NCBI GenBank assembly: GCA_905182125.1
Contig: CAJJAV010000011.1
Span: 73,934 to 137,309 of the forward strand
Direction of reading: 5' to 3'
From: an uncultured Candidatus Poseidoniales archaeon
GTDB lineage: Archaea > Thermoplasmatota > Poseidoniia > Poseidoniales > Poseidoniaceae
Length of the DNA stretch: 63,376 nucleotides
Numbering within the stretch: the stretch's first letter is position 1; each line of letters begins with the position of its first letter. Below the pieces are notes generated by a model. That model saw only the letters and a list, made by a program, of their open reading frames with translations, was not told the DNA's origin and made no database searches. Shown here in pieces: positions 4,594 through 24,848 of the stretch. The position numbers and the translations under genes are program-made.

Positions 4594-5730
4594 CTAAGGG
4601 TCGGCGTGAGTAAAGTTTGTTTGTGAAGTAAAATCGAAAAGGGGTTGTGGCGTTTCTAATTCTTCGATTCCATATTGCAGTAACTTGTCAAGAAAGTACC
4701 CTCTGAGAGATTCTGGCATATATTCTAAAGACTGAGCGAACCATTTATCCACCCATGAGATGTCTAAATTAATGTCATCTATTCGAGGGTGGGATAAGCC
4801 GTTGTTGTCTCTCGCCCACAGAAGACTAGGCAACATCGGAATATAGGCGGTATTGAGTTTTCTTTCGACTTCTTTATTGGTAGGGAGTGGATCTCCTTGC
4901 AGCCCCCTCTTTCGGAAGCACTTGAGGCAATTATTACAGGGCATTCCATGCTCCCCTCGCATACACCCCATAGAGTATTTCAAGCCCGATTCTTCGGCAA
5001 TTCTGGTGGTAAGAACCTCTGTCAAACCTGCACATGGGACACAGTACTCAAGTCCTGTGCCTCTAAAGGCGCGCATCATCGTTCCCAAATCTTTCGAGCG
5101 AAATTTTGTGCCGTGTCCATGTGGTCCATAGAGATACATACTCTCCAAAACATTACCATCTGCGAGAGTGTGTAGATCATAGTATTCTGAAAATAAGATT
5201 CCAGTCGTGGTAAATCCAGCATCTCCATAGTATCCTTTCGTTTTCCCGTAGACTGTAGGCAGTTCATCACAATTTGAGATTATTGCAACTCCATTGACTT
5301 CTTTTACCGACAGAAGCGCATTTTCAATTTTGTGCATTCCAGTTGGATTCGCTACTTGTGTGTATATTGGAATGCAAGAAGGTAGCAATTGAAGCACGGC
5401 TGATGAATCCACACCCCCTGAAAACGCAACACCAACATTTTTTCTTCCACCGATTGTAGGTATTTTTCTTTCTTCATTCGATGGGGCTTCCTCATCGAAT
5501 AAAACCAATGGAGGTTCTTGAATTGGTATTTCTAACTCGACTCTTTCTTTGAACGGCGTAAGATAGACAAACTCTGCTAAACCCAAAACATGCAAACTCG
5601 GCATGGTATAATTACCAGGGACAACCCAAAAGATTTCCATTTCAGGGTGGTGAAAAATCAATTTGCCGTCTTTTAAGTCCCACCTATCTGATCTGCTGAG
5701 CCTATCGAATTTCTCACCCACAGTAATCAC
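4594..5730 (-). CDS. PP-loop ATP-pyrophosphatase-like protein (glycan locus paralogue 1)
   Basis: A 378-residue protein with a PP-loop (SGGVDSS, residues 104-110), the ATP-binding signature of the adenine nucleotide alpha-hydrolase fold. Such enzymes adenylate a carbonyl or amide oxygen before amidation or thiolation. A cysteine cluster at C256, C265, C268 and C271 (pattern C-x8-C-x2-C-x2-C, followed by FRK) probably binds zinc or an iron-sulfur cluster. The start is a GTG with AAGGGATGAT upstream. It sits downstream of the cysteate-synthase-like gene on the same strand. A longer paralogue lies at 14826-16346. N-acetyl-sugar amidotransferases (WbpG type) are a possible functional analogue, but that link is inference. 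Confidence 0.75.
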   Translation of the reverse strand: MITVGEKFDRLSRSDRWDLKDGKLIFHHPEMEIFWVVPGNYTMPSLHVLGLAEFVYLTPFKERVELEIPIQEPPLVLFDEEAPSNEERKIPTIGGRKNVGVAFSGGVDSSAVLQLLPSCIPIYTQVANPTGMHKIENALLSVKEVNGVAIISNCDELPTVYGKTKGYYGDAGFTTTGILFSEYYDLHTLADGNVLESMYLYGPHGHGTKFRSKDLGTMMRAFRGTGLEYCVPCAGLTEVLTTRIAEESGLKYSMGCMRGEHGMPCNNCLKCFRKRGLQGDPLPTNKEVERKLNTAYIPMLPSLLWARDNNGLSHPRIDDINLDISWVDKWFAQSLEYMPESLRGYFLDKLLQYGIEELETPQPLFDFTSQTNFTHADP

Positions 5731-5778
5731 ATCATCCCTTTTATTTCGACTGTTTGAATTATCAGAATAGTGTGCTTA

Positions 5779-7023
5779 TTATGTGTGTTCTAATGCTTCA
5801 ATTATCATCGCAGCACCGTTTGCTTTTGTCACGCGGAGCCATGGGTCTACGACTGCTGTTTCATGTTCTTGCTTGAGACGATCCACACCACCACCGCTGA
5901 TGTTGAGCACGGTGCAGTCATTTGGCCCGACTTCACCCGAAGCCAAGGCTTGCTGTAGACTTGCTAAAGCCACTGCACCTGGGGTCATGATGTCGATGCC
6001 TTCGATGGATTCGTACAGGTCCTTTGCCACCATAGCAACCTCGCGTTCGACCACGTAGGTTTGACCGTTGGAGGCTTTGAGAATGTCGTGAACCGCCCCG
6101 ACTTCACCGTAAGCAGGACCTTTATTCATCAAATAATCTGAATAGACTTCGACGTCCTGTCGCGGGTAATCTTCGGGCACCAAGTGATCTCGTTTTGCTT
6201 GCCACGCGTTGTGGATGGGGCAATGCTCTACGTTTTGTGACAAGTGCTGACGAGGTGCTGGTCCTTCAAACTGACCTGATTCAATCAAGCGGTCTGCCAT
6301 CTCATGCACACCGATTGGACCAGGTCCACCGCCGATGCCTTGGAAATAATGATCCGGTAATTGTCCGATGGCAAAAGCAGCATCGAGCAGCAGTGAGCCG
6401 ATGCCGTCTCGGCGAGCAACGTTGTGGACGCTGCCTTCCATTTGCCAACCAGTGAGGACTTTTGCGATGCCTTTAGCGACTGTTTTCGCATCGTAATAAT
6501 CACCGTCTTCGACGACAACGACCTTGACGGAATCCGTTGGGTGGCCTTTTTTTGTCCAAATCCGATGACCGTGATCTTTGCCAACCACCACAATCAGCGG
6601 CATGTTGTCAAGACCACAAAAATGCGTGAAACCGCGCGCAGTGTTGCCTGCACTGGCACAGATGAGGCCTGTGCAATTGTGATCGCGTAGGCGTTGAATG
6701 GTCGGAACGGCTTCCATGTCTTTGAAACTCCCTGTGGGGCATAGGCCCCCTTTTTCCGGCCAGTAGCCGTGAAAGGTGACCCAGAGATTGCTCATACCGA
6801 GCGCTTTTCCAAGGGCTTCTGCCTTGTAGGTCGTGGTTCCTGCCACATACTCGTTGGAGGTTGTGGTTGGGATCCAATCGAGGTACTTCCAAACACCCTG
6901 AAGCGGTTTGACTTCCATGGGCCCGTTAAATTGAGCTTGTAGAAGGGCGTTGTCGGTGTACTTGAGGGTGTAAGCGTCTTCGAGGAGATCTCCTGTTCCG
7001 AGGCATTTGAGCATGTACTTCAT
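5779..7023 (-). CDS. Cysteate synthase / threonine synthase-like PLP enzyme
   Basis: A 414-residue fold type II PLP enzyme. CPTGSFKDMEA carries the Schiff-base lysine (K101), SAGNTARG (124-131) the substrate-carboxylate loop, and GIGGGPGP a phosphate-binding glycine loop. The overall pattern and length match cysteate synthases, which make L-cysteate from O-phosphoserine and sulfite, more than classical threonine synthases. There is no threonine-pathway gene nearby. It is 48 bases from the PP-loop gene on the same strand, inside a polysaccharide locus. A sulfonated amino acid for surface decoration is therefore a reasonable, unproven role. Threonine synthase remains the alternative. Confidence 0.75.
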   Translation of the reverse strand: MKYMLKCLGTGDLLEDAYTLKYTDNALLQAQFNGPMEVKPLQGVWKYLDWIPTTTSNEYVAGTTTYKAEALGKALGMSNLWVTFHGYWPEKGGLCPTGSFKDMEAVPTIQRLRDHNCTGLICASAGNTARGFTHFCGLDNMPLIVVVGKDHGHRIWTKKGHPTDSVKVVVVEDGDYYDAKTVAKGIAKVLTGWQMEGSVHNVARRDGIGSLLLDAAFAIGQLPDHYFQGIGGGPGPIGVHEMADRLIESGQFEGPAPRQHLSQNVEHCPIHNAWQAKRDHLVPEDYPRQDVEVYSDYLMNKGPAYGEVGAVHDILKASNGQTYVVEREVAMVAKDLYESIEGIDIMTPGAVALASLQQALASGEVGPNDCTVLNISGGGVDRLKQEHETAVVDPWLRVTKANGAAMIIEALEHT

Positions 7024-7176
7024 TAATTACACCTTGAGGTAGGTACCAACATATTTGTCCAAAAGTGATGTCTGTTTAACCATTTGCTCTCAAGAGAGAG
7101 ACTTTACTGCAGCCTCATGAGTTGAGCGGTGGCCAACGGCATGGGCCTTCCACCCCATTGCCTTCAAGCCCTCAAC

Positions 7177-8625
7177 TCAGAATCTAAAATAAATGAAATC
7201 AATTGTTTCCATAGGACGAAGGTAGAATGCGAGTATGAGCATAAGGCCACATAGGAGTAAAAGGGATAGTGTCTGGAAAGCCACTCCTTTCCACCACCAA
7301 TCTTGCCGCTCATCACCGTGAAGAAGGATAAATGAAAATACCAACGAAAAGGTGAGGAACTGTATTTCCGGTAATGTTTCACTCATTTCACTCCAATCGA
7401 AGTGGCCCCCAATTCCGAGAAAGGTTTTCATTGAAGGGATGAGGATCTTAGTGTCTTCAACTCGGAATATAAGCCATGTGAAGAAGATGAGGTATTGAGT
7501 GGTAATCCAAGAAAAAACAGTACCAATTTTTCCTGATTTGGAGAAGAAGATTTTCACCATAGAAGTTTTACTTGCAAAACGGTGAACAATCAACAGTATG
7601 CCGTGAATTAAACCCCATAGTACAAAATTCCACGAGGCCCCGTGCCATAACCCACCAAGCAACATGGTTGCCATAAGTGCGAAAATCATCCTTCTTGTTC
7701 CGTTTCTTGAGCCCCCGAGCGGGATGTAAAGATAATCGCGAAGCCATGTTGATAGAGAAATATGCCATCGGCGCCAAAAATCTTGGGGTGAAGTTGCCGC
7801 ATAAGGCGTGTCAAAGTTTTCTGGCAACTTTACCCCGATGAGATGCGCCGAGCCGATTGCAATATCAGTATATGCAGAAAAGTCACAATAAATCTGTATC
7901 CCGAAACACAGAGCGCCCCACCAAATTAATCCAGTATTCATTAGATGATCGCCTTCAATGAACACCGCATTTGCATGCAGCGCCACGTTATCTGCGATAA
8001 CCAGTTTTTTCGCGATTCCATAAATAATCAGTGTAAGCCCTAATCGAAAACGATAGGAATCTGTTTTCAGAGGAGATTTGATTTGTTTTCGGAAGTGTTC
8101 GGCACGTACAATTGGGCCCGCTACCAACTGTGGGAAAAAGGCGGCATAACAAGCAAAGTCTGTGAAGGAATCATACGGTGATTGTTTCTTCCGGTAAATA
8201 TCAATCGTGTAGGACATGGTTTGAAAAGTGTAAAACGAAATTCCCACAGGAAGTGCTAATCCAAATGCATCTATGCCTTGAGTTCCATTTATCTGCAGCG
8301 TGACTAAATTCAAGCTTTCAATAATGAAATCAAGATACTTGAAGATTCCAAGAATTGTTAGATTTGTTATTAAACTCAATTTCAACCAATTCTTTCGTAC
8401 TTTTTGCACGTCAGATTGATGCATCTTTTTGCCAGCAGTCCAATCGATGCATGTCGATACAAGAAGAAGGATCACGTGCCAACCTGAGGCAAGCCAAAAG
8501 AAAGTGTAGCTACAGGTAAGCAGAATCAGAATTTGTGTCCGCCTACGCTTTGATGCGAAGCCGATGGTTAACACAAAGACCAGTGGTAGGAAATAAAGAT
8601 AGTAAGATGGTGTGACAAAATCCAT
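7177..8625 (-). CDS. MBOAT family O-acyltransferase (AlgI-like)
   Basis: A 482-residue polytopic membrane protein of the MBOAT family. It carries FWRRWHISLSTWLRDY and the GGLWHGASWNF segment with the invariant catalytic histidine. AlgI-type members pass acyl groups from the cytoplasm to an exported polysaccharide. The frame extends 11 codons upstream, but GAGGGAGGAATAAGT immediately precedes the ATG at 8625, which fixes the start there. It follows the SGNH-like gene by about 30 bases on the same strand. The pair mirrors AlgI with AlgJ/AlgX acetylation systems. Confidence 0.9.
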   Translation of the reverse strand: MDFVTPSYYLYFLPLVFVLTIGFASKRRRTQILILLTCSYTFFWLASGWHVILLLVSTCIDWTAGKKMHQSDVQKVRKNWLKLSLITNLTILGIFKYLDFIIESLNLVTLQINGTQGIDAFGLALPVGISFYTFQTMSYTIDIYRKKQSPYDSFTDFACYAAFFPQLVAGPIVRAEHFRKQIKSPLKTDSYRFRLGLTLIIYGIAKKLVIADNVALHANAVFIEGDHLMNTGLIWWGALCFGIQIYCDFSAYTDIAIGSAHLIGVKLPENFDTPYAATSPQDFWRRWHISLSTWLRDYLYIPLGGSRNGTRRMIFALMATMLLGGLWHGASWNFVLWGLIHGILLIVHRFASKTSMVKIFFSKSGKIGTVFSWITTQYLIFFTWLIFRVEDTKILIPSMKTFLGIGGHFDWSEMSETLPEIQFLTFSLVFSFILLHGDERQDWWWKGVAFQTLSLLLLCGLMLILAFYLRPMETIDFIYFRF

Positions 8626-8654
8626 ACTTATTCCTCCCTCTTGATGATGGATAA

Positions 8655-10373
8655 TCATCCATTTTGTGAATTGAGCAATTGTATGTCATTTGGATTAATT
8701 GAGTTCATGCTTGTAATCAAAATTTCATCAATCATTACACCATCTTCTGTCATCCAGATACTCAGTTTAATTTCATCATCAATTGTGACATTTATCGACA
8801 TGGGTGGACCATTGAATTCAGGCTCCCACTCCCACTGCCCTTCAGAGGTCCATCCGTATGAGTTGTAACTACTCACCGGAGAAATCGTAGACAAACCATT
8901 ACTCCATCCGAGAATTATCGAATCGTTACCATAGGAGTTACCTTTCATTTTTATCCAAACAAAATATTCTCCATCCTCTGAAAAATTAAGATCATAATCT
9001 AACCTTGGCCCTGTGCGGTCACCATAGTATTGAGACACGTCCTCAGGTAAACCATGTAAAAAACCTGAACCGTGAAATAACTCATTATCTTTGAGGACCC
9101 AGTTGTCAATATTTCCATCTCCTTGAGCGCAATTTGAATAATTTTCTGCCTGAATGGTTTGAAATTCTGAATCGATGAAATGCGATTCATTCGTCCCATT
9201 ACATGACGATTCTAGGTAACCTGAAAGATCGACTCCATCAACTTGAATCACATTTTCGTCAAGACGACCGGTTTCTAATAATTGTTCAATATAAGGCGTA
9301 ATCTGTCCGCAAAAGTATTCTCTGCCGTTCACGCCAAGATGGTTGCGATCTTTGAACATAGAACTGTGCCACGTTTCCCAAAACATGTTGAGGCCGTAGA
9401 CCCCTGAGAGGTTTGAGAAGGTGTTGAATGTGTGGTTAAATCCGTCAAGTTGCTCAGGCCCAAGATAAGGGTAAACCAATGGATGGTGCGGGGTTGCTAC
9501 GAGTAACACTGGAATTCCAGCATCCCTCAGTGTATCGATCATATATTCATATGCTTGATGATTTAGAGTGCCATTTGGTCTTGGATTGTAGACGCCCTGT
9601 TTGGCTTTTCTTGGCATTTTTTCTTCCATGTATTCAAGAATTGATTCATCTGACATTGTTTCAAAGAAAGGATTTGGGAAATATGGTTCCATGAGATACT
9701 GATGCCAATCATCATCGCCAGGAGCAGGCGCTCTAGTTTCGTAGTCTAAGCCGAGTTGCTTGGATATATGCTCTTTTAGATATTCGTCTACTGCTTTTTG
9801 AGAGTAGGATTGCATTAGTTTCACTCTCTCGAGGTGCGTGTATGCTAACCACTGTTGGTCCTTTTCCCGAATGAAATTATGCCATTCACCAATGTCCTCG
9901 TGACCCATGCTTATGCTATTGATCGTGAATCGAAATTGAATGTAATCATTTAAGTCATCGCTATCATAGAAATTCCAAAGCCCATTCGGGCCAAGATCTA
10001 GGATTACCAACTCTGGATTTGCCCTTACCAATGCAGGAATTTGAAGCGATTCGGTGTAGGGGTTCCCGCCTGAGATTCCAAGATTGTAAACGCTTGTACC
10101 TTTGTCACCCAATTTCTCCGTAATACAACTTCCGTCGAGGGCTGCTTGAATAATTGAGGACCCAATCCCCACAACAGAACTTTCATCCAAACCTTCGATG
10201 TATTCGAGTGCTGGGAAGGTGACGCCATATCTGGAATTTGAAGTTAAATCGCTTGTAATGAGTTTTTCGCCGATGGTGGGGGCAAGGACGGAAGAAAGCA
10301 ATAATGATGAAAGAAAGAGAGCGCCCAGAGAAGAGAGTAAACTCAGTTTACTGAAATCCTTAATTTCATCCAC
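8655..10373 (-). CDS. Membrane-anchored SGNH/AlgX-like acyltransferase with C-terminal CBM-like domain
   Basis: About 572 residues. An N-terminal signal anchor (SLLSSLGALFLSSLLLSSVLA) is followed by an SGNH-like domain: VVGIGSSIIQAA near residue 70 in place of GDS, LDLGPNGLWNF, and a Ser-Asp-His-type KDRNHLGVNG block near residue 342-345. A C-terminal beta-rich region begins QAENYS and ends with a pattern (IWMTEDGVMIDEILI) like CBM6/35-type carbohydrate-binding modules. The likely role is transfer of acyl groups to an extracellular glycan with the adjacent MBOAT. The frame begins at a TTG (10403), but GAGGCGTTT precedes a GTG at 10373, which I prefer. Confidence 0.75.
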   Translation of the reverse strand: MDEIKDFSKLSLLSSLGALFLSSLLLSSVLAPTIGEKLITSDLTSNSRYGVTFPALEYIEGLDESSVVGIGSSIIQAALDGSCITEKLGDKGTSVYNLGISGGNPYTESLQIPALVRANPELVILDLGPNGLWNFYDSDDLNDYIQFRFTINSISMGHEDIGEWHNFIREKDQQWLAYTHLERVKLMQSYSQKAVDEYLKEHISKQLGLDYETRAPAPGDDDWHQYLMEPYFPNPFFETMSDESILEYMEEKMPRKAKQGVYNPRPNGTLNHQAYEYMIDTLRDAGIPVLLVATPHHPLVYPYLGPEQLDGFNHTFNTFSNLSGVYGLNMFWETWHSSMFKDRNHLGVNGREYFCGQITPYIEQLLETGRLDENVIQVDGVDLSGYLESSCNGTNESHFIDSEFQTIQAENYSNCAQGDGNIDNWVLKDNELFHGSGFLHGLPEDVSQYYGDRTGPRLDYDLNFSEDGEYFVWIKMKGNSYGNDSIILGWSNGLSTISPVSSYNSYGWTSEGQWEWEPEFNGPPMSINVTIDDEIKLSIWMTEDGVMIDEILITSMNSINPNDIQLLNSQNG

Positions 10374-10450
10374 AAACGCCTCTAGAAGAGTACCCCCCTT
10401 CAAGTAATCTTAGAAGTATCGTACCAAAGACCGGTTGTAAGCAATAGATG

Positions 10451-10460
10451 TTTTATACAA
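10451..10460 (-). promoter_or_regulatory. Probable TATA box for the SGNH-MBOAT operon
   Basis: On the minus strand this reads TTGTATAAAA, a good archaeal TATA element. It lies about 80 bases upstream of the preferred GTG. A transcription start about 25 bases downstream would leave a leader containing the GAGG ribosome-binding site. Confidence 0.45.
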
Positions 10461-10497
10461 TTCGAAGAGCGATTTCATAGACAATAAACACCTCAGC

Positions 10498-10550: not shown

Positions 10551-11920
10551 CTAGGGTGTCTGGCTCTTTTCGCCAAGAGGCTTACCTACGGCATAGCATT
10601 GCCAACCCATTGATTGGAGGGCGTCGAGATCCAAAACCCGACGTCCATCGTACAATAATGGAGTACGCATGTTCGAAAGAAGAGCCTGCCAGTCGAGTTC
10701 CAAGCATGCTTTGTGCGCCGTCACTAAGACAACCATATCGTAGCCATCCGCTTCAGTCAAATCTGTTTCGGCTATGACGCCATCTGGGAACATATTGCCG
10801 TCGATGTGTGGATCCCAAGCACCAACTGTTATGCCCTTGGCCATGAGTGTTTCAGCAAGAGGTTCGGCTGGCGTTTCACGAGGATCGCCAACTTCTGCTT
10901 TATAGGACCAGCCAAGCAAGAGCACTTTTGCTTCATCCGCTGACACTTTTGCAGACCACATAACCTCTGTCAAAACACCTGCAACATGGCTCGGCATCGA
11001 GCGATTAACGGCGCGTGCTGCGGTGATGAGTCCTGCTGGAACGCCAACATCGGCGGCTCGCTGAATCATGTAGTACGGATCAACGGGGATACAGTGGCCT
11101 CCAACACCGACGCCTGGAGTATATCGATGGAAATTCCATTTGGTTGCGGCTGCAGAAAGAACATCTTCAACATCGACATCCATAGCGGGGAAAATTCTGG
11201 CTAATTCATTGACTAAGGCAATGTTGATGTCGCGTTGGACGTTTTCAATGACCTTTGCTGCTTCAGCGACTTCGAGTTTGCCGACGTAGCGCACATCCTC
11301 GCTGGTGAGTTGGCTGTACAATTGTATCAACGCTTCACCAACCTCTGGATTCGTGCAACCTATGACGCGTGCAACCGAACGCACACCATGCGCTGAATCA
11401 CCCGGATTAAACCGCTCAGGGCAATATGCGATTTCTAAATCTTCACCAATGACAAGCCCTAATTCTTCGATGATGGGCATCCATGTTTGTGCAGTGACCC
11501 CTGGATAAACCGTTGACTCAAGGACCACGATGGTGTTTCTTTCCTTAGGCATTGCCTCAAAGACCGATCTTCCGGCTGCTTCAACAAAGGAGAGATCAGG
11601 CTTCAAATCGTGTGTTATTGGAGTAGGCACGGTCACGAGGATCACGTCACAATGCGGCACAGCCTCTGCAGTGGAGCTGGTGATATGCCAGCGTTCAGTA
11701 CCAGGACTCGGGACAATATCATCAACATCTGGGTCTCCAGTAGGATTCTTTCCAGCCCTGACCATATCAACGGTGCGTTGAGACACATCTACGCCCCAAA
11801 CTGTGAACCCCGTTTAGCAAATTCAACAGCTAAAGGCAATCCAACATAACCAAGACCGATGATGCCAATTGTAAGGGCTCCTGATGCCGCTGATCTGGTG
11901 AAGTGTTCATTAAATCCCAT
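10551..11920 (-). CDS. UDP-sugar 6-dehydrogenase (WecC/UDP-ManNAcA type), frameshifted near its N-terminus
   Basis: This enzyme oxidises a UDP-hexose to a UDP-uronic acid with NAD. The long frame (10551-11786) contains the central domain and PGVGVGGHCIPVDPYYM with the catalytic cysteine, as in UDP-ManNAc dehydrogenases, but lacks the NAD fold. The missing part is present upstream in another frame: ATG at 11920, then IGIIGLGYVGLPLAVEFAKRG. The two frames join cleanly (GFTVWGVDVSQRT) if one base is missing in the ggttc region at 11806-11811. About 456 aa when restored. It could be a sequencing indel or a recent mutation. It supplies an acidic sugar to the glycan locus. Confidence 0.85.
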
Positions 11921-12042
11921 GTGTCTTGCTACGCTCTACCCATTATCAAATCAATGGCAATTGGAGACTCTCGTAGATGCCTTTGCTGACAGGGAAATAT
12001 AGGCTAGAGGCAATTTTGCGCCGGTCTAATGATAAGGGGACG

Positions 12043-12912
12043 ATGAGACCAGCCAACATGACTGAATTGGAGCACTCGGAGCCTCCGCTCCAAGATGTTG
12101 CAAAGAGGGCGAGTTCTTTGTTCGCTCCATTCTGGATGTTTAAGGAAGTCTTCAACCACCGTTTTTTGGTCAGAAACTTGATACGAAGGGATGTACGAGG
12201 TAGGTATCGAAATGCTATGCTTGGCTACGCATGGGCCCTCATAGAACCTGCATTATTTGCCCTGGTGTATTGGTTTTTATTCATCATGTTAAGCGGCAAC
12301 CCCGATGAGATGTACGCTGTTTGGGTTTTAATCGGAGTTGTCGTCTGGGGGTGCTTCGGGAAATCCCTCAGTGCAACAACTAATTCGCTGGTAGGCAATG
12401 CAAGGACAATGCATCTTGTTTATTTCCCAAGAGTTATCTTTCCAATCACCGCAGTTGGAGCAAATTTTGTAGTCACTCTGATGAGCAGTCTGGTGATCAT
12501 TCCGATTTTGATGGTGTATGATTTACCAATCACCATGCACCTCTTTTGGGTGCCTGTGGGCATTTTCCTAGCTGGTATAATGGCTCTTGGTTTTGGCATG
12601 ATGGTCGCCCCGTTGAACTGTGTGCAAAGAGATGTGGGCCACTTTATGCGCTTCGTTGTTCGAGCAGGTTTCTTTGTATCACCAGTCATGTGGACTGCTG
12701 AAATGGCTGCACAACGGGGAGCTTGGGGTGAGGCAGCCCTCTACAACCCGGTTGTTTTACCCATCACCATGGTCCGGCATGCGCTAGAAGGAAAATCTGT
12801 CGATTTACCACCTGAAGTGATCCTCTCAAGCCTCATTATTACATGTGTACTATTGGTCACAGGGGCTATGGTGTTTGCGCGATTGGAGCGTGGGGCGGTG
12901 AAGTACCTATGA
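12043..12912 (+). CDS. ABC-2 type polysaccharide export permease (Wzm/TagG-like)
   Basis: About 289 residues with six hydrophobic segments. The cytoplasmic N-terminal motif LVRNLIRRDVRGRYRNAMLGYAW is typical of permeases for O-antigen, teichoic acid and similar glycans. The frame opens at 11977. The ATG at 12043 is preceded by AAGGGG and the one at 12058 is a possible alternative; earlier codons look non-coding. The stop overlaps the start of the ATPase gene in an ATGA. The pair would export the lipid-linked polymer made by this locus. Confidence 0.9.
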   Translation: MRPANMTELEHSEPPLQDVAKRASSLFAPFWMFKEVFNHRFLVRNLIRRDVRGRYRNAMLGYAWALIEPALFALVYWFLFIMLSGNPDEMYAVWVLIGVVVWGCFGKSLSATTNSLVGNARTMHLVYFPRVIFPITAVGANFVVTLMSSLVIIPILMVYDLPITMHLFWVPVGIFLAGIMALGFGMMVAPLNCVQRDVGHFMRFVVRAGFFVSPVMWTAEMAAQRGAWGEAALYNPVVLPITMVRHALEGKSVDLPPEVILSSLIITCVLLVTGAMVFARLERGAVKYL

Positions 12913-16431: not shown

Positions 16432-18121
16432 TTACGCGGGTTTTCCGGGGTCGCGGGACAAGGTAATTCTATGATTCAGTCCCATCCGAGCCAAGGAACT
16501 CTGAGCGCAATGGTGAGTATTGTGATCCTGATCCCTAACATCAACTTTAGAAGTGTTCTGATTGTGTTGACGGTAAAGGTATAGGGGTACTTGAAGATGA
16601 TGCCCCGTCGTGAGCTCAGAAAGTTGTGAAAAGAAATCATAGTCAACAGCATTGGAGATGGATTGATCAAAACCGTTGCTGCGATTGTAATCACGGCGAC
16701 GGAACATCCGCGGGTGATGAACCATCATTCCCTGAGTAAGTCGTTTTCTTGAGTAGACAGACCATGAATAAGCGTGCCCCAAGTCAGTACCTTCTGAATC
16801 GATGAGATACGAATCTCCGTAAACAAAGCCAATATCAACTTTGTTTCTTTCGAACACCTGGACCAATAATTCTGCTGCCTTGGGTAAAAGCACATCATCT
16901 GAATCCAATTGCAGGATATATTCACCTCTACCGGCCCGAATCGCAGCATTGGAGGCACTCGAAATACCTCCATTTTCTTGGTGCACAATCACAACACGTG
17001 GATGAGACCCATACAATTCTTGTATTAATTCGCCAGTTCCATCGGTCGAACCATCGTTACAAATAACCACTTCTAAATCGGTGAATGTTTGATTCAAAGC
17101 ACTTTCCACCGCTTCTTCTATGAAATCAATGCAATTATAAGCCGGAATGTATACACTTATCTTTGGAATTTCGTAAATTCTGTTCATCTCTGATTTACGG
17201 TACAGGCGGCAAGGGCATTTTTCGGTTAATTGCTCTCTGGTGATCACACGGCCGGAATCTCTGTCGGTTTCATTCGAACCACCTGGCGGTTCTTGATGCA
17301 ATCCGATCGCCCCCTTGACAGGAATAAACCACGCACCTGCGGCATACATCCTGTAACCATACTCTTGGTCTTCAGCACCCCACGCAGTGAAGGCTTCGTC
17401 AAAGCCACCAATGGAGTTGTGCAAATCTCGATGGAAGCAGATATTACCACCGCAGAGCCAACGGAAGGCGTATTTAGCATCCTTGGCATCATTCGTGGAA
17501 GCGTAGCCTTTGTATCGCCAGTCTTCACTAGGTTCTTCATCCCCAATCGGCCCTCTTCCTGTATCGACACGTTGGGTTGGTAAGTCAAGCACCGGCTGGA
17601 TCTCTTCAAGAACAGATTCAATTGATAGGGCGTCAGTGTTCACAAAACGGCGACCGCCAATCAGAACAGCGTTTGTCCCAACGTGCATGTACTTCATATA
17701 CGATTCAACCAATGTAGGTTCGGGAAGCATGTCACAATCTAAAATGATAATTTGGTCGTGCTTTGCTTCACGCACACCATAATTCCGTGCCTCGCTCAAT
17801 CGATACCCGAGGTCTTCTTGGAAGATGTGTTTTATTGGAAAAAAAGATTCAAACATCGGAATAAGGGTTTCTGATCCGCGAATAAAAGGTTCATCAGCGA
17901 TGATCACTTCACCCCGCAGCGGGTAGTCAGAGCTGTGTCAAAGCTGCGATGGTTTTACCCAACTTTTCTTTTCGATTGTAGACCGGAATGACCAAACTCA
18001 CTGGAAGGGTGTATGTCGGGTTTTGATCCTTGGGAAACATTTGCTCAACGGCGCGCTCAAACGGGGTCCAATCGTTCCCCGCACCGAGCAAAGGCGGCAT
18101 TAATTCATCAATTGTCAACAT
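16432..18121 (-). CDS. Double GT2 glycosyltransferase (chondroitin-synthase-like), frameshifted
   Basis: Two frames make one protein of about 562 residues. The N-terminal part (18121 to 17927) ends just after SLVIPVYNRKEKLGKTIAALTQL. The second frame resumes with DYPLRGEVIIADE, so one inserted (or two lost) bases near 17936 break the first GT2 domain. That domain continues with LDCDML (DxD) and FDEAFTAWGAEDQEYGYR, as in bifunctional chondroitin/heparosan polymerases. The second GT2 domain starts ISVYIPAYN and has LDSDDV. The enzyme probably adds two alternating sugars. Its ATG is 3 bases from the TupA-like gene stop. Confidence 0.85.
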
Positions 18122-18124
18122 AAT

Positions 18125-18916
18125 TTACTCACCACCGTTTTGAAAATACGAACCGAATTTTTCCGATACAGCCAAGTCAGAGAATTCACCAAAACCACAA
18201 GCAGGAGTGAATGTGAGTTCACCGAAGTATATGTTCTGGTCGACAAGGTACAAATCCACTCGAACGTAATCGAGTCCCACGGACAGTTGTTTTGCGATTT
18301 TCAACATCTTCTCTAGTTCAGCCCTCTCAGGGGGAGCTGAACCGGTGTTTGGGAGTCCTGACTTTTCAACCTCTAAAAAAGCAAAATTTTCATCGTAGAA
18401 ACTCTGTTTAAGAGCGCTTTGGCGATTCGTGTTGATTTGCATGAACCACTTGCATCCCGATTTGGAATTAAACATGTGAAATTTATAATCATCTGGTGAA
18501 ACCCCATTGATGCCAATTTTTTCTTCAACGAGAATTCTGGGGACGATGCACTCATATTGAAACTCACCCCATTTTACGCCGTTATATTGATCGCCCATGG
18601 CTCGATTGAATTTTTCGAGAACTTCTTGTTTGGTTTTGGAAGTAGGAAACAATTCAATGTGTTCGGGCCCGGAACCGTGTGTTGTCTTGATGACGATATT
18701 GTGATCTGTTTCGAACTCAACTTCATCAATCGAATTATGAACCCCATGTATTGGCACCAGATATTCCTCTCCAATGATCTTCGAAACGTACGACCTCACA
18801 GCAAACTTATCAGTTAAAATGGATTCTTTTTCCCCAAGTTGAAACTTTTTCAATTGGATGTGGTGATTAAATGTTGTTGGATTTATCCAATCCATCTCAT
18901 ACCCATTTGTCTCCAA
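18125..18916 (-). CDS. TupA-like ATP-grasp protein
   Basis: A 263-residue ATP-grasp protein. DKFAVRSYVSKIIGEEYLVP, NIVIKTTHGSG (nucleotide-binding strand), ECIVPRILVEEKI, YKFHMFN and VRVDLYLV...FGELTFTPACGFG follow the TupA family order. TupA of alkaliphilic Bacillus is linked to teichuronopeptide synthesis, where amino acids are attached to a uronic-acid polymer. The start is a TTG at 18916; ATG at 18895 is an alternative, and the frame is open further upstream without a good codon. It lies between the GT28-like and GT2 genes in the same operon. The C-terminal fusion at 20379-23647 carries a second copy of this domain. Confidence 0.75.
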   Translation of the reverse strand: METNGYEMDWINPTTFNHHIQLKKFQLGEKESILTDKFAVRSYVSKIIGEEYLVPIHGVHNSIDEVEFETDHNIVIKTTHGSGPEHIELFPTSKTKQEVLEKFNRAMGDQYNGVKWGEFQYECIVPRILVEEKIGINGVSPDDYKFHMFNSKSGCKWFMQINTNRQSALKQSFYDENFAFLEVEKSGLPNTGSAPPERAELEKMLKIAKQLSVGLDYVRVDLYLVDQNIYFGELTFTPACGFGEFSDLAVSEKFGSYFQNGGE

Positions 18917-18954
18917 AAATCTTTGATTGATTTTATTGATTAATGTTGAATTTT

Positions 18955-20382
18955 TCAGTTACGTCCCCCCAATTCGGCCCTCTGCTTGGGCACAGAAGAT
19001 GGTCGCTCTCTTTTTGCTTTACTCAGTTGTTGATACACGCCGAATGCCCCATTTTCCACATCGTTTTTTCCAAGAGGTTTGGACATCCCAAGCAGGCGAT
19101 TGACTCCTGCATTGATTGCTTTTTCGTCACGAACAACAATAACATGACCCCATCCTTCTGCCTCAGAGACTTTACAGCGAGCAAGTTGATCATCCATCCC
19201 TGTTTCCATATTTGGATAGAATAAAGCGGGTAGGCCGAACTGACGGGTTTCATGGAAGGAGTTGTAACCTCCCGCTTGTATTGTTGCATCAAAGGCCTTG
19301 AAATACATAGAATTAGGGTAATCCCTTAGCAACACCACCCGATCTAGATTTATGTTCAAACGCTGTCCAAGCATAGATTCACCGATCACTACAGTCACAT
19401 CTTTGTGTGCTAAGAGGGCATCCACCGTCATGCGGATTTCTGAATCAATATCATTGATTCTTCCCGCACCAAGTTGGACATACACAACGCGGCCATCCAG
19501 CGGTACATTCAATCGACGCCTTGCAGGATCACGAAGCATTAATTCATTCTGATCAAGAAGAACAATCGGCGCACAAGTCATTGACTCGACGCCGTGAAAG
19601 ATTTCACTTGGAACCACGGGTACGCTGTCTTCGGGATGAATGATGGTGTCAAAGTGTGCGATGCTGTCGACGGGAATTTTGGTTCCTTTCTTGAAGGTCC
19701 CGCGACGCATCCAAACTTTTCTCGTGAGTTTTTGCTCTTTAATAGTGTTCAGCATACCACGGTAAGGATAGGCGCCATCAAAGATGAAAGTCGACGGACG
19801 ATGATGATTCATCACAAGAGAAAGTTGCTCTTCCATCAATGCGTTCCAATCGCTGGCGGAGATATCGTTGTATTTCTTTCGCCCTGCAAGATGGTAGGTG
19901 ACAAAACCATCATTGTACAACAGGTGCAAGGTAGGCATTGTAGTGAAAAATACAATTTCTGTAGATGGCGAATGTTTCCGATAGCGTTTTGCGAGAGCAT
20001 ACATACGAGTGAAATGCCCAAAACCAACTCCGTTGGTGGGGAAGAAAACGATGCTGTCACGCAATTCGACAGCTGATTCTGAGAGGGTGCCATGTTTAAT
20101 TATTGGAACTGGCCAACGGCCAAGTCGTTCCATACCGATGGAGAATATCAAAAACAGAACGGAAAAGGGTAGCATAAGAAGTCGAAGAGGCCGGAACGCT
20201 GCCCTCGTGCAGAGCAACCCGATGCGAAACGAAGCGGAGTTTCGCAAACGCCGGTTCTCACGGGCCAGTTGGTTTTGCCGTAATTGCAACTTCTTTTGTT
20301 TCATTTTACTTGGTGATGGCTCGAAGGTTTGCATCTCTGAAGTGCTTCCATCTTTGGTGTCCATGGCGTCATCTTCAATCAT
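18955..20382 (-). CDS. GT28/MurG-like GT-B glycosyltransferase
   Basis: About 475 residues. An N-terminal coiled or basic stretch and SASFRIG lead to a hydrophobic segment (LRLLMLPFSVLFLIFSI) that probably holds it on the membrane. A GT-B fold follows: FFPTNGVGFGHFTRM (glycine-rich acceptor loop like MurG and other GT28 enzymes), FDGAYPYRGMLN, VVYVQLGAG, and IQAGGYNSFHETRQFGLPALFYPN (donor-side GG..S..E loop). AAGGAGGGTGTACA precedes the ATG at 20382, fixing the start eight codons inside the open frame. The start overlaps the stop of the fusion gene (ATGA). Confidence 0.78.
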   Translation of the reverse strand: MIEDDAMDTKDGSTSEMQTFEPSPSKMKQKKLQLRQNQLARENRRLRNSASFRIGLLCTRAAFRPLRLLMLPFSVLFLIFSIGMERLGRWPVPIIKHGTLSESAVELRDSIVFFPTNGVGFGHFTRMYALAKRYRKHSPSTEIVFFTTMPTLHLLYNDGFVTYHLAGRKKYNDISASDWNALMEEQLSLVMNHHRPSTFIFDGAYPYRGMLNTIKEQKLTRKVWMRRGTFKKGTKIPVDSIAHFDTIIHPEDSVPVVPSEIFHGVESMTCAPIVLLDQNELMLRDPARRRLNVPLDGRVVYVQLGAGRINDIDSEIRMTVDALLAHKDVTVVIGESMLGQRLNINLDRVVLLRDYPNSMYFKAFDATIQAGGYNSFHETRQFGLPALFYPNMETGMDDQLARCKVSEAEGWGHVIVVRDEKAINAGVNRLLGMSKPLGKNDVENGAFGVYQQLSKAKRERPSSVPKQRAELGGRN

Positions 20383-23300
20383 TGTACACCCTCCTTGTCG
20401 TTCCAATGACTCCCAAGATAACGTTCAGCAAATTGCGAGTACCCATTTCCACCGTGCGGGGTCGGCGTAAAGTCGCCAAACACAGCCCCTTTAGATGTGG
20501 CATACATGTCGATACGCATAAAAACATTGAGGGCGGCCCCGAGTTTCTTCACTGACTGAATCATCTCATCCCAACAATCTGGTCGTTGAATCGTGGTATC
20601 TTGGACTTCCCTTGAGTCCATGATTTTCTCACTAAAGGGCTGAAATTTTTCATCGAAATAGTGATGCGTGTTTTCCGAGAGGCTTACATTCGATGTTCTC
20701 AAAGTGACATGCACCAATGCAATTTGATCGCCAAAGGTGTAAAATTTGAAACACCTGGGAATTAGATTTGGACTTGATGCTTCTTCTGGAATCAAAAGTT
20801 CTTCCACGATGGTTTTTGTTTTGGAAACTTGATTAATGTTGGCAAGGGAATCCAAGATCGTATCACGGGTGTACGCAGTCTGGTCGAGGAGATTGATCCC
20901 CTCCTTCATGCAAAATATATTCTTCGAACTCCAACCCCTCTCGGTTTTGATCACGAATGAAATTGGAAGTTGATCAAACGGTGGTATCTTTTGATAATCA
21001 GAACCTTCCCAATAGACTTCTGGGACCTTAACACCGTTCTCTTTGGCAAAATTCATGCCTTTGATTTTGGCTGAGAGATGCTTCTGTGGCAGTTCTTTTT
21101 TATCTTTCCACCACCGCATATGTCTTGAGTGGATATGTTCCGAAAAAACCTGCATTCCTGATTGCCATTGAGGGCCAGCATGCAATTCTTTCGGCACTGC
21201 ATAAGCTCGTTTGGATACTTTAGCAGGTACATACAGGTTCGCAAGGTTGTTTTTATTTTGTTTGTGCCATATTGAATATGCTATATGATTGGCTAATCGC
21301 GGGCCTGTCAAAGAACGCCAACCAATCATGAAGCGTCCACCTCCCGAAAGCGAGGTTGAATGCAAGGTGACGAATAGAGTGGTCAATGGCTGATGATGAA
21401 TGGAATCCTCGCCGAAAAAAAGGGAGATTCGTTTGATGTATTCACTGTCTGCGCCAACCCTAAGTGAATCAAAAAATCCAATAGAATCAACGACGCTAGT
21501 CTTGATCACAAGAGAAATGGCTGCCATACGAATGGCTCCAATACCCCTGAATTCAATGTTTGAAGATTCATCAATTCGGATATGGTCTTGCGTGATGGCA
21601 CAAAGCTCAACATTTCCTGAAAGTTTAGACAACGCCATCTCGATTCGTTGCGGATGCGAGTAATCGTCGCTGTCCATGAACGCTATGTAGTCACCTTTCG
21701 CTTCGGTCATGCCTCGGTTTTTGGCAAGGTAAGTCCCTCCATTGGTTGCCATTTGAATGATTTTTACTCTTGAATCGAGTTGTTTTACAAGCGCTAAGTG
21801 CTCCATTGTGTCATCAGGTGAGCAATCATCTACAATGATTAATTCTAAAGAAGGGTATGTCTGGGTTAAGAATTGAGTGGATGGCCGCCAGCAATGACTC
21901 ATCGTACTTGTATGTGGTCATGACCACGCTGACCAATCCGAAATCTTTGCTGGACGTTTCGGTGTCGCTTTGAAGGCAACAAGGCGTCATCAATCCCTCC
22001 TTTGAGGCGGTCCGAATGGGTGACAGGCCCTCGTATTCAAGGAGATTGTTAATGCAGTCAAGTTGTTCTTTAATCGATTGACTTTCTCTCTTAATTTGGG
22101 CCAAGAGGGCCCATCCTTCTCTTGAATTAGCTGTTTTTACAATGTGGCTTCGACACAGTTCTGTCGCTTGCGTAATTTCGCCTTCTTTGAGCAAACATAA
22201 GATTTTTTTCTCACGGAAGAACCTGCCAGGCAAGCTTTCAGCATTCGTGTTGATAAAGTCTAAACAGGAGGCGTAATCTTTTTTGTAGCCGAGTAAAAAA
22301 TTCACGTACATCCGGCTGATTTTCACTGAGGAAATGGCATCCAATGCGTTTTTTATTTCCTCTTCAAGCAATGAAGGTTGCCAAAATTTCAATCCCGCTT
22401 GTATTCGCCCTTCAATCGCCCGTGAATCTTGTGAATCTATTTTCAATATTTCTCCGAAAGTTGTGATTGCAGAGGGGAAATCTCCTAATTCTGATTGGAT
22501 TCCAGCCTTCAGGTGCAGGGAAAACACATCTTGATCGTTCAATGATAATTGTTCATCAATCTCATCAACGCAGGCGGCGTATTGGCCTAATGATGCTTTT
22601 TTGTGAAGTTGATATATAAAGTTCAATTTTGAATCTGTCGCGAAGAGGTGCTCGAACTCTTTGCTTTGTTTTTCGTTTGCTTTTTTATCGATGGAGTGGT
22701 GTATTTTCTTAAGTTCGCTGTTCGTCAATTTACCCAATTCAACGAGTTTATTGGTGGAAGTAAGCATGATTGGAAAATCAAAAACAATCGTCGCCGCTTG
22801 GAGAGTTCGGTGCAATTGTAATTCAGAAAGATTTCGCTTTTTCGAAATAAGAGCACTGATTTGGATTGATTCCAACCATTGATGCGTTCGAAAATAACAA
22901 ATGAAGATTGAATGATGTACTTCATCCATCGAAATGGGAATTTCCAATCCACGTTTGTAGAGGTTGATTGCCTCCACATAATTCCGGCCTTTGGTGAAGA
23001 GGCTAATCAATTTCGGAATTTGTTCGGGCTGCATTAATAGTTTATTTTCTAACGTCTCCCAACTAATGTCTAATGAAGGGATTAGGGCCAAATCCGGTAG
23101 TATTTCTACTAGTTTTTGTGTAGCGTTCGGTGACAATGCCTCTTTTTTCAAGAGAGGTTCTATTTTCTGTTTCGCACTATCAAAATCAAGCTGGGAAAGG
23201 TGGTGTTGGGCGAGTATAATAGAAGCAATTACCAATGATTTTTCGGTGCTTAGCCGCTCAACTAGGTTGTGAATCCATTCCCGAATATGGGGCTTTTTCT

Positions 23301-23647
23301 AGGATTTGTACAAATAAGGCTTCATCTGATTCAGACCAATCATAACCGTCCTCGTATTTTTCAAAGGTGTCCCAGTCGGCAAGAACTCGGCAAGCATGGA
23401 GGATTCTTTTTTGATGGGCTTCATTTCGACGGATTTTGTAGAGTTTTATTGTGAGTTCTAAGCACTCACTATGGCGTCCTGTGTTCGAATAGAGACGAGA
23501 CATGACATCCAATGCCCATTCATCTTCTGAATTTTTCTGGAGCAATTTTTCCAGATAAGGTTCTGCGAGCGAATACTCTTTTTGATTGTAGTATGCTCTT
23601 GCTTTTGCCTTGACAGGGATGACCGCTCGAAAAAAAGGCCACCTCAT
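20379..23647 (-). CDS. TPR - GT2 glycosyltransferase - ATP-grasp fusion protein, with two frameshifts
   Basis: Three frames line up into one protein of about 1,090 residues. Residues 1-130 (23647-23258) and the next 430 (to about 21870) are TPR-like helical repeats (e.g. YSLAEPYLEKLLQKNSEDEWAL). They join at about 23250, where the second frame reads REWIHNLVERL before the first annotated Met. A GT2 domain begins FGLVSVVMTTYKYDESLLAAIHS; an extra base near 21866-21869 shifts it to TQTYPSLELIIVDDCSPDD, with DxD in FMDSDDY. The C-terminal 280 residues are TupA-like ATP-grasp (SFVIKTERGWSS, RIDMYA, FGDFTPTPHGGNG). Both breaks look like single-base indels. It is the first gene of the minus-strand operon. 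Confidence 0.77.
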
Positions 23648-23860
23648 GAGCGAAGGTGTCGTCAGTTGGTTATGGAGGTGTTGCCGTAGATTCTTGCTGC
23701 GAACTGGTTTCCCGAATGCCTACTCATCATCACTGCGAATATTTACCTGTTCCGGGGGAAAGGAGATGCCATCATTTCAAGATAAGAGCATGAATCATTT
23801 ATGAGATCCTGACCTATGAATTTTGTTGAACCTTACATCTTTCTGAGAAAAAGACCGAAG

Positions 23861-23871
23861 GCTATGTAATA
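23861..23871 (+). promoter_or_regulatory. Possible TATA box for the epimerase gene
   Basis: An AT-rich tatgtaataag element lies about 25 bases before the ATG at 23892, as expected for a nearly leaderless archaeal transcript. The 244-base region holding it separates the divergent fusion gene and epimerase gene and has no gene of its own. Confidence 0.35.
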
Positions 23872-23891
23872 AGTGGGCCAAATCGCACATC

Positions 23892-24848
23892 ATGCCAAGG
23901 GTACTGGTAACCGGGGGAGCCGGCTTCATCGGCAGCCATGTTGTCCGCATGACACTCAGTTTGGGTTGGGATGTTACTGTTCTCGATAACCTCACAACTG
24001 GTCTTAAATCAACGACTGATGAACTTGTTGAGCTCGGTGCCACGTTCAAACAAGGTGACATTCGGGATCTTGCGACTGTTGAAAGTTGCATGGAATCTTG
24101 TGATGCTGTGATTCATTTAGCCGCCCAAGTCTCGGTGCCGATCTCAATTCAGAGGCCTGAAGAAACTCATGAAATTAACATCCAAGGAACTGAATGTGTA
24201 ATTAAATCTGCAATCAAGTTCAATGTAAAAAATTTAGTCATGGCCTCAAGTGCTGCGGTTTACGGCGAGGCAGACAGTTTGCCATTGGATGAAGATGATG
24301 CAGGTGACGTTTTGTCGCCTTATGCAACAACAAAATTCTACAACGAAACTCAAATTCTGGAGGCGCGCACAGCAGGAATGAACGCAACAGCGCTCCGTTT
24401 TTTCAATGTATACGGAGATGGACAAAGACCTGATGGTGCATATGCTGCAGTGATTCCAAAGTTTGTAAGTCAGTTAATGGCTGGAGAATCTCCTGTATTC
24501 GGCGATGGTGAACACACACGAGATTTCATTCATGTAGAGGACGTTAGTAGAGCTATTTTGAATATTCTAAACCTATCTTCTGAGAAAAATAAGCATCATG
24601 TGTACAATATAGCAACTCAAAGTTCGGTGACTTTAATCCAGTTAATCGGGGCAATCAATTCCGCCCTTGTTGAATTCCAGCCCACTTTTACGCCTCTTGT
24701 TGCGAACCATTTAGATGAACGCGAGGGAGACATCCGCCACTCGATGGCGAGTATCAAGCGAATTACAACTGCAACAGATTGGACGCCACAAATTACTTTC
24801 GAACGGGGAATAAAGGCCCAAGTCAAAGCTTATTTGGGAAAAATGTGA
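23892..24848 (+). CDS. NAD-dependent nucleotide-sugar epimerase/dehydratase (GalE-like SDR)
   Basis: A 318-residue extended SDR. It has VTGGAGFIGSHVV (NAD binding, residues 5-17), HLAAQVSVP, SSAAVYGE with the catalytic serine region, SPYATTKF with the YxxxK pair, and FFNVYGDGQRPDGAYAAVIPKF, typical of UDP-glucose/UDP-GlcNAc 4-epimerases. It interconverts UDP-hexoses to feed the glycan locus. The stop overlaps the next GT4 start (TGATG), so the two are translationally coupled. Confidence 0.9.
   Translation: MPRVLVTGGAGFIGSHVVRMTLSLGWDVTVLDNLTTGLKSTTDELVELGATFKQGDIRDLATVESCMESCDAVIHLAAQVSVPISIQRPEETHEINIQGTECVIKSAIKFNVKNLVMASSAAVYGEADSLPLDEDDAGDVLSPYATTKFYNETQILEARTAGMNATALRFFNVYGDGQRPDGAYAAVIPKFVSQLMAGESPVFGDGEHTRDFIHVEDVSRAILNILNLSSEKNKHHVYNIATQSSVTLIQLIGAINSALVEFQPTFTPLVANHLDEREGDIRHSMASIKRITTATDWTPQITFERGIKAQVKAYLGKM

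Follow-up and report, generated by a model that had tools for sequence, protein, structure and literature searches.

The 63,376 nucleotides analysed here (the window) belong to a marine Poseidoniaceae archaeon, a member of a surface-ocean lineage, and positions 4594 to 24848 hold a real polysaccharide locus in which a gene for a predicted cysteate synthase lies among genes for the synthesis and export of a uronate-containing chain. Profile matches across this region are far beyond chance. All the gene types that a first-pass annotation had listed, namely a dehydrogenase, two TupA-like and two PP-loop proteins, a PLP enzyme, an MBOAT/SGNH pair and an exporter, were found within it by profile searches (Pfam and NCBIfam) and from translations of the window. 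The interpretation offered there, a uronate glycan with amide-linked amino acids, is partly supported; the identity of the PLP enzyme, the uronate-polysaccharide setting and intact ATP-grasp and PP-loop motifs speak for it, but neither TupA-like nor DUF6395 genes co-occur with cysteate synthase beyond chance. The polymer backbone is probably glycosaminoglycan-like, and an amide linkage of cysteate to it is plausible from the gene content. Coordinates are on the minus strand unless marked (+).

Polymerase, precursor, export and acylation genes

The gene at 16432–17907 encodes the body of a chondroitin-synthase (KfoC)-like bifunctional GT2-GT2 polymerase, which matches E. coli K4 KfoC (2z86/2z87) over residues 1–478 of 491 with 414.8 bits (E 3.8e-123). 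The two GT2 domains occur in the same order and align end to end with those of KfoC, and both DxD sites (LDCDM and LDSDD) are present. The body begins at profile position 74, and a 64 amino acid ORF in another frame (17930–18121) covers positions 5–64 and represents the N-terminal piece; the N-terminus is out of frame in the window and open in relative L060. The protein is predicted to be a bifunctional glycosaminoglycan synthase of the chondroitin/hyaluronan type, homology giving its class but not its sugar specificity. Hyaluronan synthases of the KfoC class are related to chondroitin synthases. We note that this two-domain homologue was not singled out in the first-pass annotation, which likened the product to teichuronopeptide; uronate genes and TupA-like domains are present, but the backbone is better called glycosaminoglycan-like.

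The nucleotide-sugar 6-dehydrogenase (10551–11786; TIGR03026, 329 bits against a cut-off of 190) is of the UDP-uronate-forming type, as had been proposed, with its N-terminal NAD motif (GLGYVG) in another frame. Its best PDB match is the UDP-N-acetyl-D-mannosaminuronic acid dehydrogenase 4r16, followed by CalS8 and Cap5O; it is closer to the HexNAc-type than to the UDP-glucose enzymes, and its fit to chondroitin is not simple. The Wzm/Wzt exporter consists of an ABC-2 membrane subunit (11977–12912 (+); PF01061, 53 bits) and an ATPase (12843–13628 (+); PF00005, 86 bits). The gene that follows, 13632–14822 (+), has no Pfam or NCBIfam match; its product is in the same local family as that of 18955–20406, and it lies beside the exporter in several relatives. 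The 18955–20406 protein has no Pfam match itself and is a probable GT-B-like glycosyltransferase-family protein; one relative (L068:523–1869) has a weak match, under the cut-off, to EryCIII-like_C.

The DltB-like MBOAT O-acyltransferase (7177–8658) is above the Pfam cut-off (PF03062, 116 bits) and matches DltB 6bug/8jem with about 90 bits, while its SGNH, DltD-like partner (8655–10403) falls just under both relevant cut-offs (PF13472, 24.7 against 32.9 bits; PF04914, 21.3 against 22.7). DltB/DltD D-alanylation itself was rejected, since the DltB equivalog scores 165 bits against a cut-off of 375, which leaves a general MBOAT/SGNH acylation. The remaining genes encode a TPR-like protein (21826–23235), whose C-terminus is, by translation and three-frame reading, the start of a GT2 domain in another frame, and an NAD-dependent sugar epimerase (23892–24848 (+); PF01370, 198.7 bits).

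The cysteate synthase gene and its neighbours

The PLP enzyme gene (5779–7023) is intact and encodes 414 amino acids. Its TIGR03844 score of 401.3 bits exceeds the equivalog cut-off of 324.9, and the solved cysteate synthase 9k3c is its best structure match at 251.8 bits, against 30–33 bits for threonine synthases. It shares 36 near-invariant positions with other TIGR03844 proteins, 20 of which differ in five threonine-synthase-like paralogues; K101 and N127, which we take to be the PLP lysine and a PLP-contact asparagine, are kept, as are 20 family-specific positions, and the lysine and most of the family-specific residues also occur in the 9k3c alignment when read by eye. In a tree the branch between cysteate synthases and threonine-synthase-like proteins is fully supported. 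By these comparisons the enzyme is a cysteate synthase and not a threonine synthase, in keeping with the resemblance first noticed; grouping with threonine synthases was not seen in profile scores, structure match, residues or tree. Over nearly its full length the enzyme is of the same family as the coenzyme M cysteate synthase of Methanosarcina acetivorans (MA3297; PMC12068725) and as the solved structure 9k3c.

Two other roles known for such enzymes were weighed. That it is the lineage's missing threonine synthase might be suggested by thrC, which is above its cut-off in none of the 71 genomes of the same family; the gene itself, as counted here, is present in just 22 of these 71, and the protein scores 38 bits with thrC (cut-off 167) and 74 with PRK08197 (cut-off 303). 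Homoserine kinase is above cut-off in none of 118 genomes, which is weak evidence because the thrC-bearing sister family also lacks it by the same model. We regard the threonine synthase reading as disfavoured and highly improbable. Service in coenzyme M synthesis, the setting from which the family is known (PMC12068725), is exemplified by locus L178, from a different and probably methanogenic family of the phylum, where cysteate synthase is found with a TPP enzyme and HcyBio. In contrast, comDE and a sulfite source were not found here and the gene is in a polysaccharide operon; the sulfopyruvate decarboxylase beta subunit was absent from all 69 genomes searched at E up to 1e-10 (41 of the same family, the source genome included), and the neighbours of the gene are glycan genes. 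Membership in that pathway is accordingly disfavoured, its probability being close to negligible.

None of 47 sister-family genomes carries cysteate synthase. A search of viral contigs for it found nothing, and a search of plasmids gave two Streptomyces homologues, one of which was retrieved and bore no annotation. Among 46 distinct loci, the window included, 37 have an assembled gene upstream of cysteate synthase, and in 32 of these it is a polysaccharide gene: dehydrogenase in 21 (with a gap within 150 bp in 19), MBOAT in seven, SGNH in three (one on the opposite strand) and TupA in one; the other five are of other kinds. The order is GT2-TupA-cysteate synthase-DUF6395-epimerase in L083 and dehydrogenase-cysteate synthase-(GH43/GDSL)-MBOAT/SGNH in L054. 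A place for cysteate synthase in uronate-polysaccharide loci, conserved within a family and found with more than one set of genes, is therefore supported. The expectation that the gene set is conserved and not scattered in relatives held for the dehydrogenase, exporter and cysteate synthase, which stay together, but TupA and DUF6395 genes are found in only part of the loci.

Candidate amide-forming enzymes

The two TupA-like ATP-grasp domains, one alone (18125–18916; PF14305, 125.7 bits) and one fused to GT2 (20379–21902; PF00535, 78.6 bits, and PF14305, 62.3 bits), are well above the PF14305 cut-off of 25 bits. The K, EE and R-x-D residues, which we presume to bind ATP and metal, are kept in them, except that in the fusion one presumed metal residue (the second Glu) is Asp. 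TupA-like genes occur in 10 of the 22 cysteate synthase carriers against 9.0 expected among the 71 genomes.

Both PP-loop enzymes belong to Pfam DUF6395 and have the motif FSGGVDS. The shorter, at 4594–5730 (PF19932, 69.7 bits), lies 52 bp downstream of cysteate synthase and also keeps four spaced cysteines; the other, 14826–16346 (72.8 bits), is the next gene after the polymerase. A model of residues 200–506 of the latter, from a 10-row domain alignment, has a pLDDT of 83, while the shorter protein, modelled from a 5-row alignment, reached only 41. The model resembles QueC 3bl5 (TM 0.67 by target length and 0.45 by query length, E 1.6e-3, 14% identity), and six of nine weak PDB profile matches of DUF6395 are PP-loop enzymes. 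Motif and predicted QueC-like fold together indicate that DUF6395 is a PP-loop ATP pyrophosphatase. QueC itself was rejected as its identity, the QueC profile matching at E 0.2 only. QueC, a 7-cyano-7-deazaguanine synthase, activates a carboxylate by adenylation and converts it to an amide; DUF6395 has a similar cysteine cluster, and differs in its C-terminal extension, its glycan-locus setting and its possible fusion to a polymerase. Such KfoC-DUF6395 fusions are present in L068, L069, L191, L192 and L194. DUF6395 adjoins cysteate synthase in L083 as well, and accompanies it in 6 genomes against 5.3 expected (71 genomes, 22 carriers). These genome-level counts led us to reject a dedicated pairing of either TupA or DUF6395 with cysteate synthase.

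A proposed pathway, its alternatives and known systems

We propose that the dehydrogenase would make UDP-uronate and the KfoC-like two-domain enzyme would polymerise alternating HexNAc and uronate, while cysteate synthase would form L-cysteate from O-phosphoserine and sulfite. An adenylating DUF6395 protein, fused or coupled to the polymerase, or a TupA-like ATP-grasp enzyme may then activate a carboxylate and join an amine to it, giving an amide such as uronate-cysteate; export of the chain would fall to the ABC-2 proteins and its O-acylation to the MBOAT/SGNH pair. The sulfonate could be a PAPS-independent stand-in for glycan sulfation. Homology is the basis for the UDP-uronate, polymerisation and cysteate steps and for the export genes; the step order and the amide-forming step we infer, and cysteate as the amide partner is the weakest part. 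Production and export of a glycosaminoglycan-like polysaccharide for the cell surface by these steps, cysteate included, is a tentative proposal with somewhat less than an even chance. Counted against it are that no ligase tracks cysteate synthase, that KfoC-DUF6395 occurs without detected cysteate synthase (G062, G063, G103 and G222, three of which have a contig end within or close to the cluster), that at E 1e-50 a KfoC homologue is missing from 20 of the 22 cysteate synthase carriers of the family, and that none of 8 carriers yielded a PAPS reductase, the enzyme that usually supplies sulfite. A more specific form, in which Poseidoniaceae have a coat of chondroitin- or hyaluronan-like chains and a QueC-like PP-loop ligase, coupled to the polymerase, adds L-cysteate to the uronates in amide linkage, is unlikely but not far-fetched. 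It would have sulfonation replace sulfation of the animal type, since PAPS-making enzymes are reportedly missing from the lineage; according to PMC6864105, MGIIa MAGs are without ATP sulfurylase and APS kinase and MGIIb have both.

It is also quite possible, if less than probable, that the polymer is glycosaminoglycan-like, that DUF6395 and TupA attach ammonia or another amino acid, and that cysteate synthase is a passenger of a variable slot whose product is a free solute or goes to other sulfonates such as lipids. In 13 fetched flippase loci without the gene, the slot holds a DegT aminotransferase (seven), nothing (three), an HDAC gene (two) or a cysteate synthase remnant (one), and the absent link to either ligase and the KfoC-DUF6395 genomes just mentioned also fit; in L084 none of three scanned neighbours is a glycan gene, and DUF373 and CBS genes lie alongside. 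In Chryseobacterium, sulfonolipid synthesis begins with cysteate synthase (PMC11211663), an example from outside methanogens in which the cysteate ends up in lipids. However, glycan genes are same-strand, short-gap neighbours in most assembled loci, and the different glycan gene sets of L054 and L083 are not explained by a gene that rides in a single slot. Attachment of cysteate to an amino sugar, its own carboxyl being activated by the ATP-grasp enzyme, is improbable: TupA-like genes adjoin DegT, an amino-sugar-making type of enzyme, near cysteate synthase in seven loci (L065, L066, L067, L069, L071, L072 and L074), but such a pair also occurs far from it (L144, near 1.82 Mb of G055), and no DegT was labelled near the two TupA genes of the window. 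Finally, the dehydrogenase, polymerase and GT2-TupA genes (the last with its start in the reading frame of the TPR ORF that precedes it) change frame in the window assembly, and relative L136 has a short cysteate synthase piece only, as might be expected of a decaying locus from which this strain makes no polymer. This we consider very unlikely, as dehydrogenase and polymerase genes are open and in the same order in relatives such as L060, the cysteate synthase, MBOAT, SGNH, exporter and DUF6395 genes are open in the window, and assembly errors would give the same picture.

Marine group II archaea, an abundant and uncultured group of the surface ocean, have a cell surface that is poorly known. 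The fusion of a KfoC-type polymerase with an adenylating PP-loop domain and the presence of cysteate synthase in a polysaccharide operon make concrete and cheap enzyme tests available. Cysteate in the coat, if true, would add a new origin for sulfonated dissolved organic matter and a route to an acidic glycan that needs no sulfate, and may give strongly acidic coat groups without the usual sulfation machinery. Open-licence papers on polysaccharides with cysteate or taurine, on glycans of Poseidoniales or marine group II and on archaeal chondroitin synthase yielded no such system. In the capsule of Staphylococcus aureus strain M (type 1), a bacterial polymer, an aminouronic acid bears taurine in amide linkage; there is thus a chemical precedent for a sulfonated amine on a uronate, with taurine there and cysteate proposed here. 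In Methanococcus N-glycans threonine is amide-linked to uronate, and the amide of an amino acid with an archaeal uronate is therefore not new as such; cysteate would be. The E. coli K4 capsule locus, like that of the window, has a UDP-uronate dehydrogenase and an ABC exporter; the present locus differs in being archaeal, in the PP-loop fusion of five relatives and in the ATP-grasp, acylation and cysteate synthase genes alongside. With Bacillus halodurans teichuronopeptide (TupA; PMC8153356) the locus has in common a TupA-like ATP-grasp and a uronate-polymer setting. It differs in that no polyglutamate gene was found among the scanned window genes, the polymerase is glycosaminoglycan-synthase-like and a GT2 domain is joined to one of the TupA domains.

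The cysteate synthase and its genomic setting

The PLP enzyme of the glycan locus (positions 4594-24848) is encoded at 5779-7023 on the minus strand, beside a DUF6395 PP-loop gene (4594-5730, minus strand), and its resemblance to cysteate synthase, proposed in the first-pass annotation, is borne out by model score, structure match, residue comparison and tree. It scores 401 bits against the cysteate synthase model (cut-off 325), versus 38 bits against the thrC model (cut-off 167) and 74 bits against a second threonine synthase model (cut-off 303). Among solved structures it matches best the one named cysteate synthase, 9k3c (251.8 bits, residues 3-391); threonine synthases in that set reach 30-33 bits. 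Across 38 Poseidoniaceae and 10 other phylum proteins, 36 positions are near-invariant; compared with the sister family's five threonine-synthase-like paralogues, which themselves score below the thrC cut-off, 20 of these positions differ in all five, 15 are shared and one is mixed. A 54-row tree places all 38 Poseidoniaceae sequences in a single clade (100/100) and splits off the five threonine-synthase-like ones (100/100), with a long-branch warning for the other rows. The M. acetivorans cysteate synthase gene is among the subjects of PMC12068725, and cysteate in sulfonolipids among those of PMC11211663.

A thrC match above cut-off is found in none of 71 Poseidoniaceae genomes and is present in the sister family (18 genomes); thrB is above cut-off in none of the 118 genomes of both families, which says little because neither family has it by this model. 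The sulfopyruvate decarboxylase beta subunit was found in none of 69 genomes (41 Poseidoniaceae, 28 sister family; E up to 1e-10), and the cysteate is therefore probably made for a purpose other than coenzyme M.

Cysteate synthase is present in 22 of the 71 Poseidoniaceae genomes versus none of 47 from the sister family (E at most 1e-40, partial copies counted; p 4e-6 for related genomes, so the events are not independent). The 47 candidate loci, window included, carry its ORF in 46 cases, some partial (locus L073 has none), and two of them, L075 and L093, come from one assembly. Relatives of the window enzyme occupy 42 loci, filed as Poseidoniaceae, Poseidoniales or Poseidonia (26), Euryarchaeota archaeon (15) and a gammaproteobacterium (1); we infer that families f1 and f2 of the genome searches are MGIIa and MGIIb, respectively. 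The gammaproteobacterial contig, L095, carries a Poseidoniales-like glycan locus and is probably mis-binned, since its GT2-DUF6395 protein is 99% identical over 712 amino acids to that of the Poseidoniales record L069.

The upstream neighbour, assembled in 37 loci, is a nucleotide-sugar dehydrogenase gene in 21, separated from cysteate synthase by at most 150 bp in 19 of these; ORF overlaps are not meaningful, as starts were set at the furthest upstream start codon. Elsewhere it is MBOAT (7), SGNH (3, one on the opposite strand), BolA or glutaredoxin (2), TupA (1) or unassigned (3). Genes often found downstream are those for glutaredoxin/BolA, a Wzx-type flippase and an accompanying GT4 protein. 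In 13 fetched flippase loci without the full enzyme, a subset of the flippase matches in which several contigs end nearby, so that absence is not proved for each, the corresponding slot is occupied by an oppositely oriented DegT aminotransferase gene in seven cases, by an HDAC-like gene in two and by a cysteate synthase remnant in one, and is empty in three. The remnant, in L136 (contig 75 of genome G028), is a 75-amino-acid ORF directly 3' of the dehydrogenase gene that matches the C-terminal 51 profile positions, an apparent gene loss within the operon. Another of these loci, L130, is from genome G003, which has cysteate synthase elsewhere: on its contig 13 (L054), as in L083 (order GT2, TupA, cysteate synthase, DUF6395, epimerase), the gene lies within a different glycan cluster. 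L084 is an exception, its cysteate synthase neighbours being DUF373 and CBS genes. We note that in the window the cysteate synthase/DUF6395 pair is separated from glutaredoxin/BolA by a histone-deacetylase-family gene (3395-4393); such a gene also occupies the slot of L131 and L137.

The polymerase and the putative carboxylate-activating enzymes

Each gene type listed for the locus in the first-pass annotation is present at its window position; what that list missed is the chondroitin-synthase-like identity of the GT2-GT2 protein encoded at 16432-17907 (minus strand). This KfoC-like polymerase matches the E. coli chondroitin synthase 2z86/2z87 with 414.8 bits (residues 1-478 of 491), the open polymerase of locus L060 does so with 454.5 bits (residues 38-560 of 630), and both DxD motifs are kept. 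Since chondroitin synthase has relatives among the hyaluronan synthases of its class, the chain, as judged by homology, may be GalNAc- or GlcNAc-based. At E 1e-50, KfoC homologues occur in 5 of 118 relatives, in L068 and L069, and in at least 6 of the 389 genomes from the phylum, where scoring covered the first candidates per genome. Only 2 of the 22 Poseidoniaceae cysteate synthase carriers have one, and the joint presence of both genes in L068, L069 and L060 proves no association because these loci were fetched as cysteate synthase carriers. The polymerase is fused to DUF6395 in five loci from two families of the order (L068:2395-5682, L069:2304-5936, L191:1362-4664, L192:5213-8521 and L194:1-2676); a DUF6395 gene directly follows it in the window (14826-16346, minus strand) and in L060, and lies about 1.9 kb away in L193. 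In the dehydrogenase, polymerase and GT2-TupA genes of the window, the stretch coding for the N-terminus is out of frame with the remainder, which is compatible with assembly error as well as with decay.

Residues invariant across 13 DUF6395 sequences include the PP-loop motif's G-x-D-S and a set of four cysteines (C-x7-9-C-x2-C-x2-C). Searched as a profile against PDB sequences, DUF6395 had only weak matches, six of nine to PP-loop enzymes (argininosuccinate synthase 0.004, QueC 0.2, LarE 0.32) and the second best to Pumilio (0.0065), which is not one. The domain was modelled with AlphaFold (pLDDT 83, pTM 0.85), and Foldseek matched the model to TilS, TtuA, LarE, QueC, NcsA, MnmA and GMP synthetase, all PP-loop enzymes, at modest E-values (10 at ≤0.001); QueC 3bl5 has the top target TM-score among the 50 matches listed (0.67 at 4.1 Å; 0.45 by query length; E 1.6e-3). 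Given motif, profile matches and predicted structure, the earlier assignment of two PP-loop enzymes is sound as a statement of fold. Both TupA-like proteins, the stand-alone ATP-grasp (18125-18916) and the GT2 fusion (20379-21902), both on the minus strand, exceed the Pfam cut-off. The expected ATP/Mg-binding residue types are kept in an alignment of eight sequences, where K37, K77, E131, E132, K145, R219 and D221 (stand-alone protein numbering) are invariant; the fusion differs within the GE(L/F)T stretch, where its E is replaced by D.

Possible attachment of cysteate to the glycan

Homology supports a locus that would supply a uronate donor, a GAG-type polymerase, an exporter, an acylation pair and cysteate, together with two types of ATP-dependent enzymes predicted to be able to activate carboxylates. 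Taurine occurs in an S. aureus capsule and threonine uronamide in Methanococcus. Teichuronopeptide is among the subjects of PMC8153356. The locus enzymes may join cysteate to the glycan chain, as the first-pass annotation had proposed for amide-linked amino acids on a uronate glycan. The fusion of polymerase and PP-loop domain, which would bring an activating domain to the glycan as it grows, supports such attachment. So does the report, in PMC6864105, of MGIIa MAGs without ATP sulfurylase and APS kinase, and therefore without PAPS for sulfotransferases. Counting against it, cysteate synthase has no genome-level association with TupA (10 of 22 carriers, 9.0 expected, p 0.39) or with DUF6395 (6 of 22, 5.3 expected, p 0.44), and PAPS reductase was found in none of 8 carriers tested, so that sulfite would have to come from elsewhere.

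Cysteate synthase in other lineages and further window genes

In another Thermoplasmatota family (f16), cysteate synthase and PAPS reductase are fused in locus L174, and a phosphatidylserine-decarboxylase-like gene comes next (L174:8363-10384 and L174:10384-11004); this arrangement supports sulfite use by the enzyme family. In L176 of the same family the order is cysteate synthase, PAPS reductase and a phosphatidylserine-decarboxylase-like protein (L176:6245-9003). The f16 set is likely a self-contained sulfite-to-cysteate module, its product perhaps taurine. L175 and L183 have ORFs close in length to the L174 fusion. A 39% identical cysteate synthase homologue is encoded on a Streptomyces sp. 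NBC_01340 megaplasmid (L053:12001-13059), in an unannotated record, near a 3,943-amino-acid open frame.

Outside the glycan locus, the window encodes a possible adhesion protein of 1,065 amino acids with seven fasciclin domain matches (54007-57204) and a probable metal uptake operon (38838-42889), in which ABC and ABC-3 genes follow that of a ZnuA-like binding protein showing weak matches to EF-hand domains.
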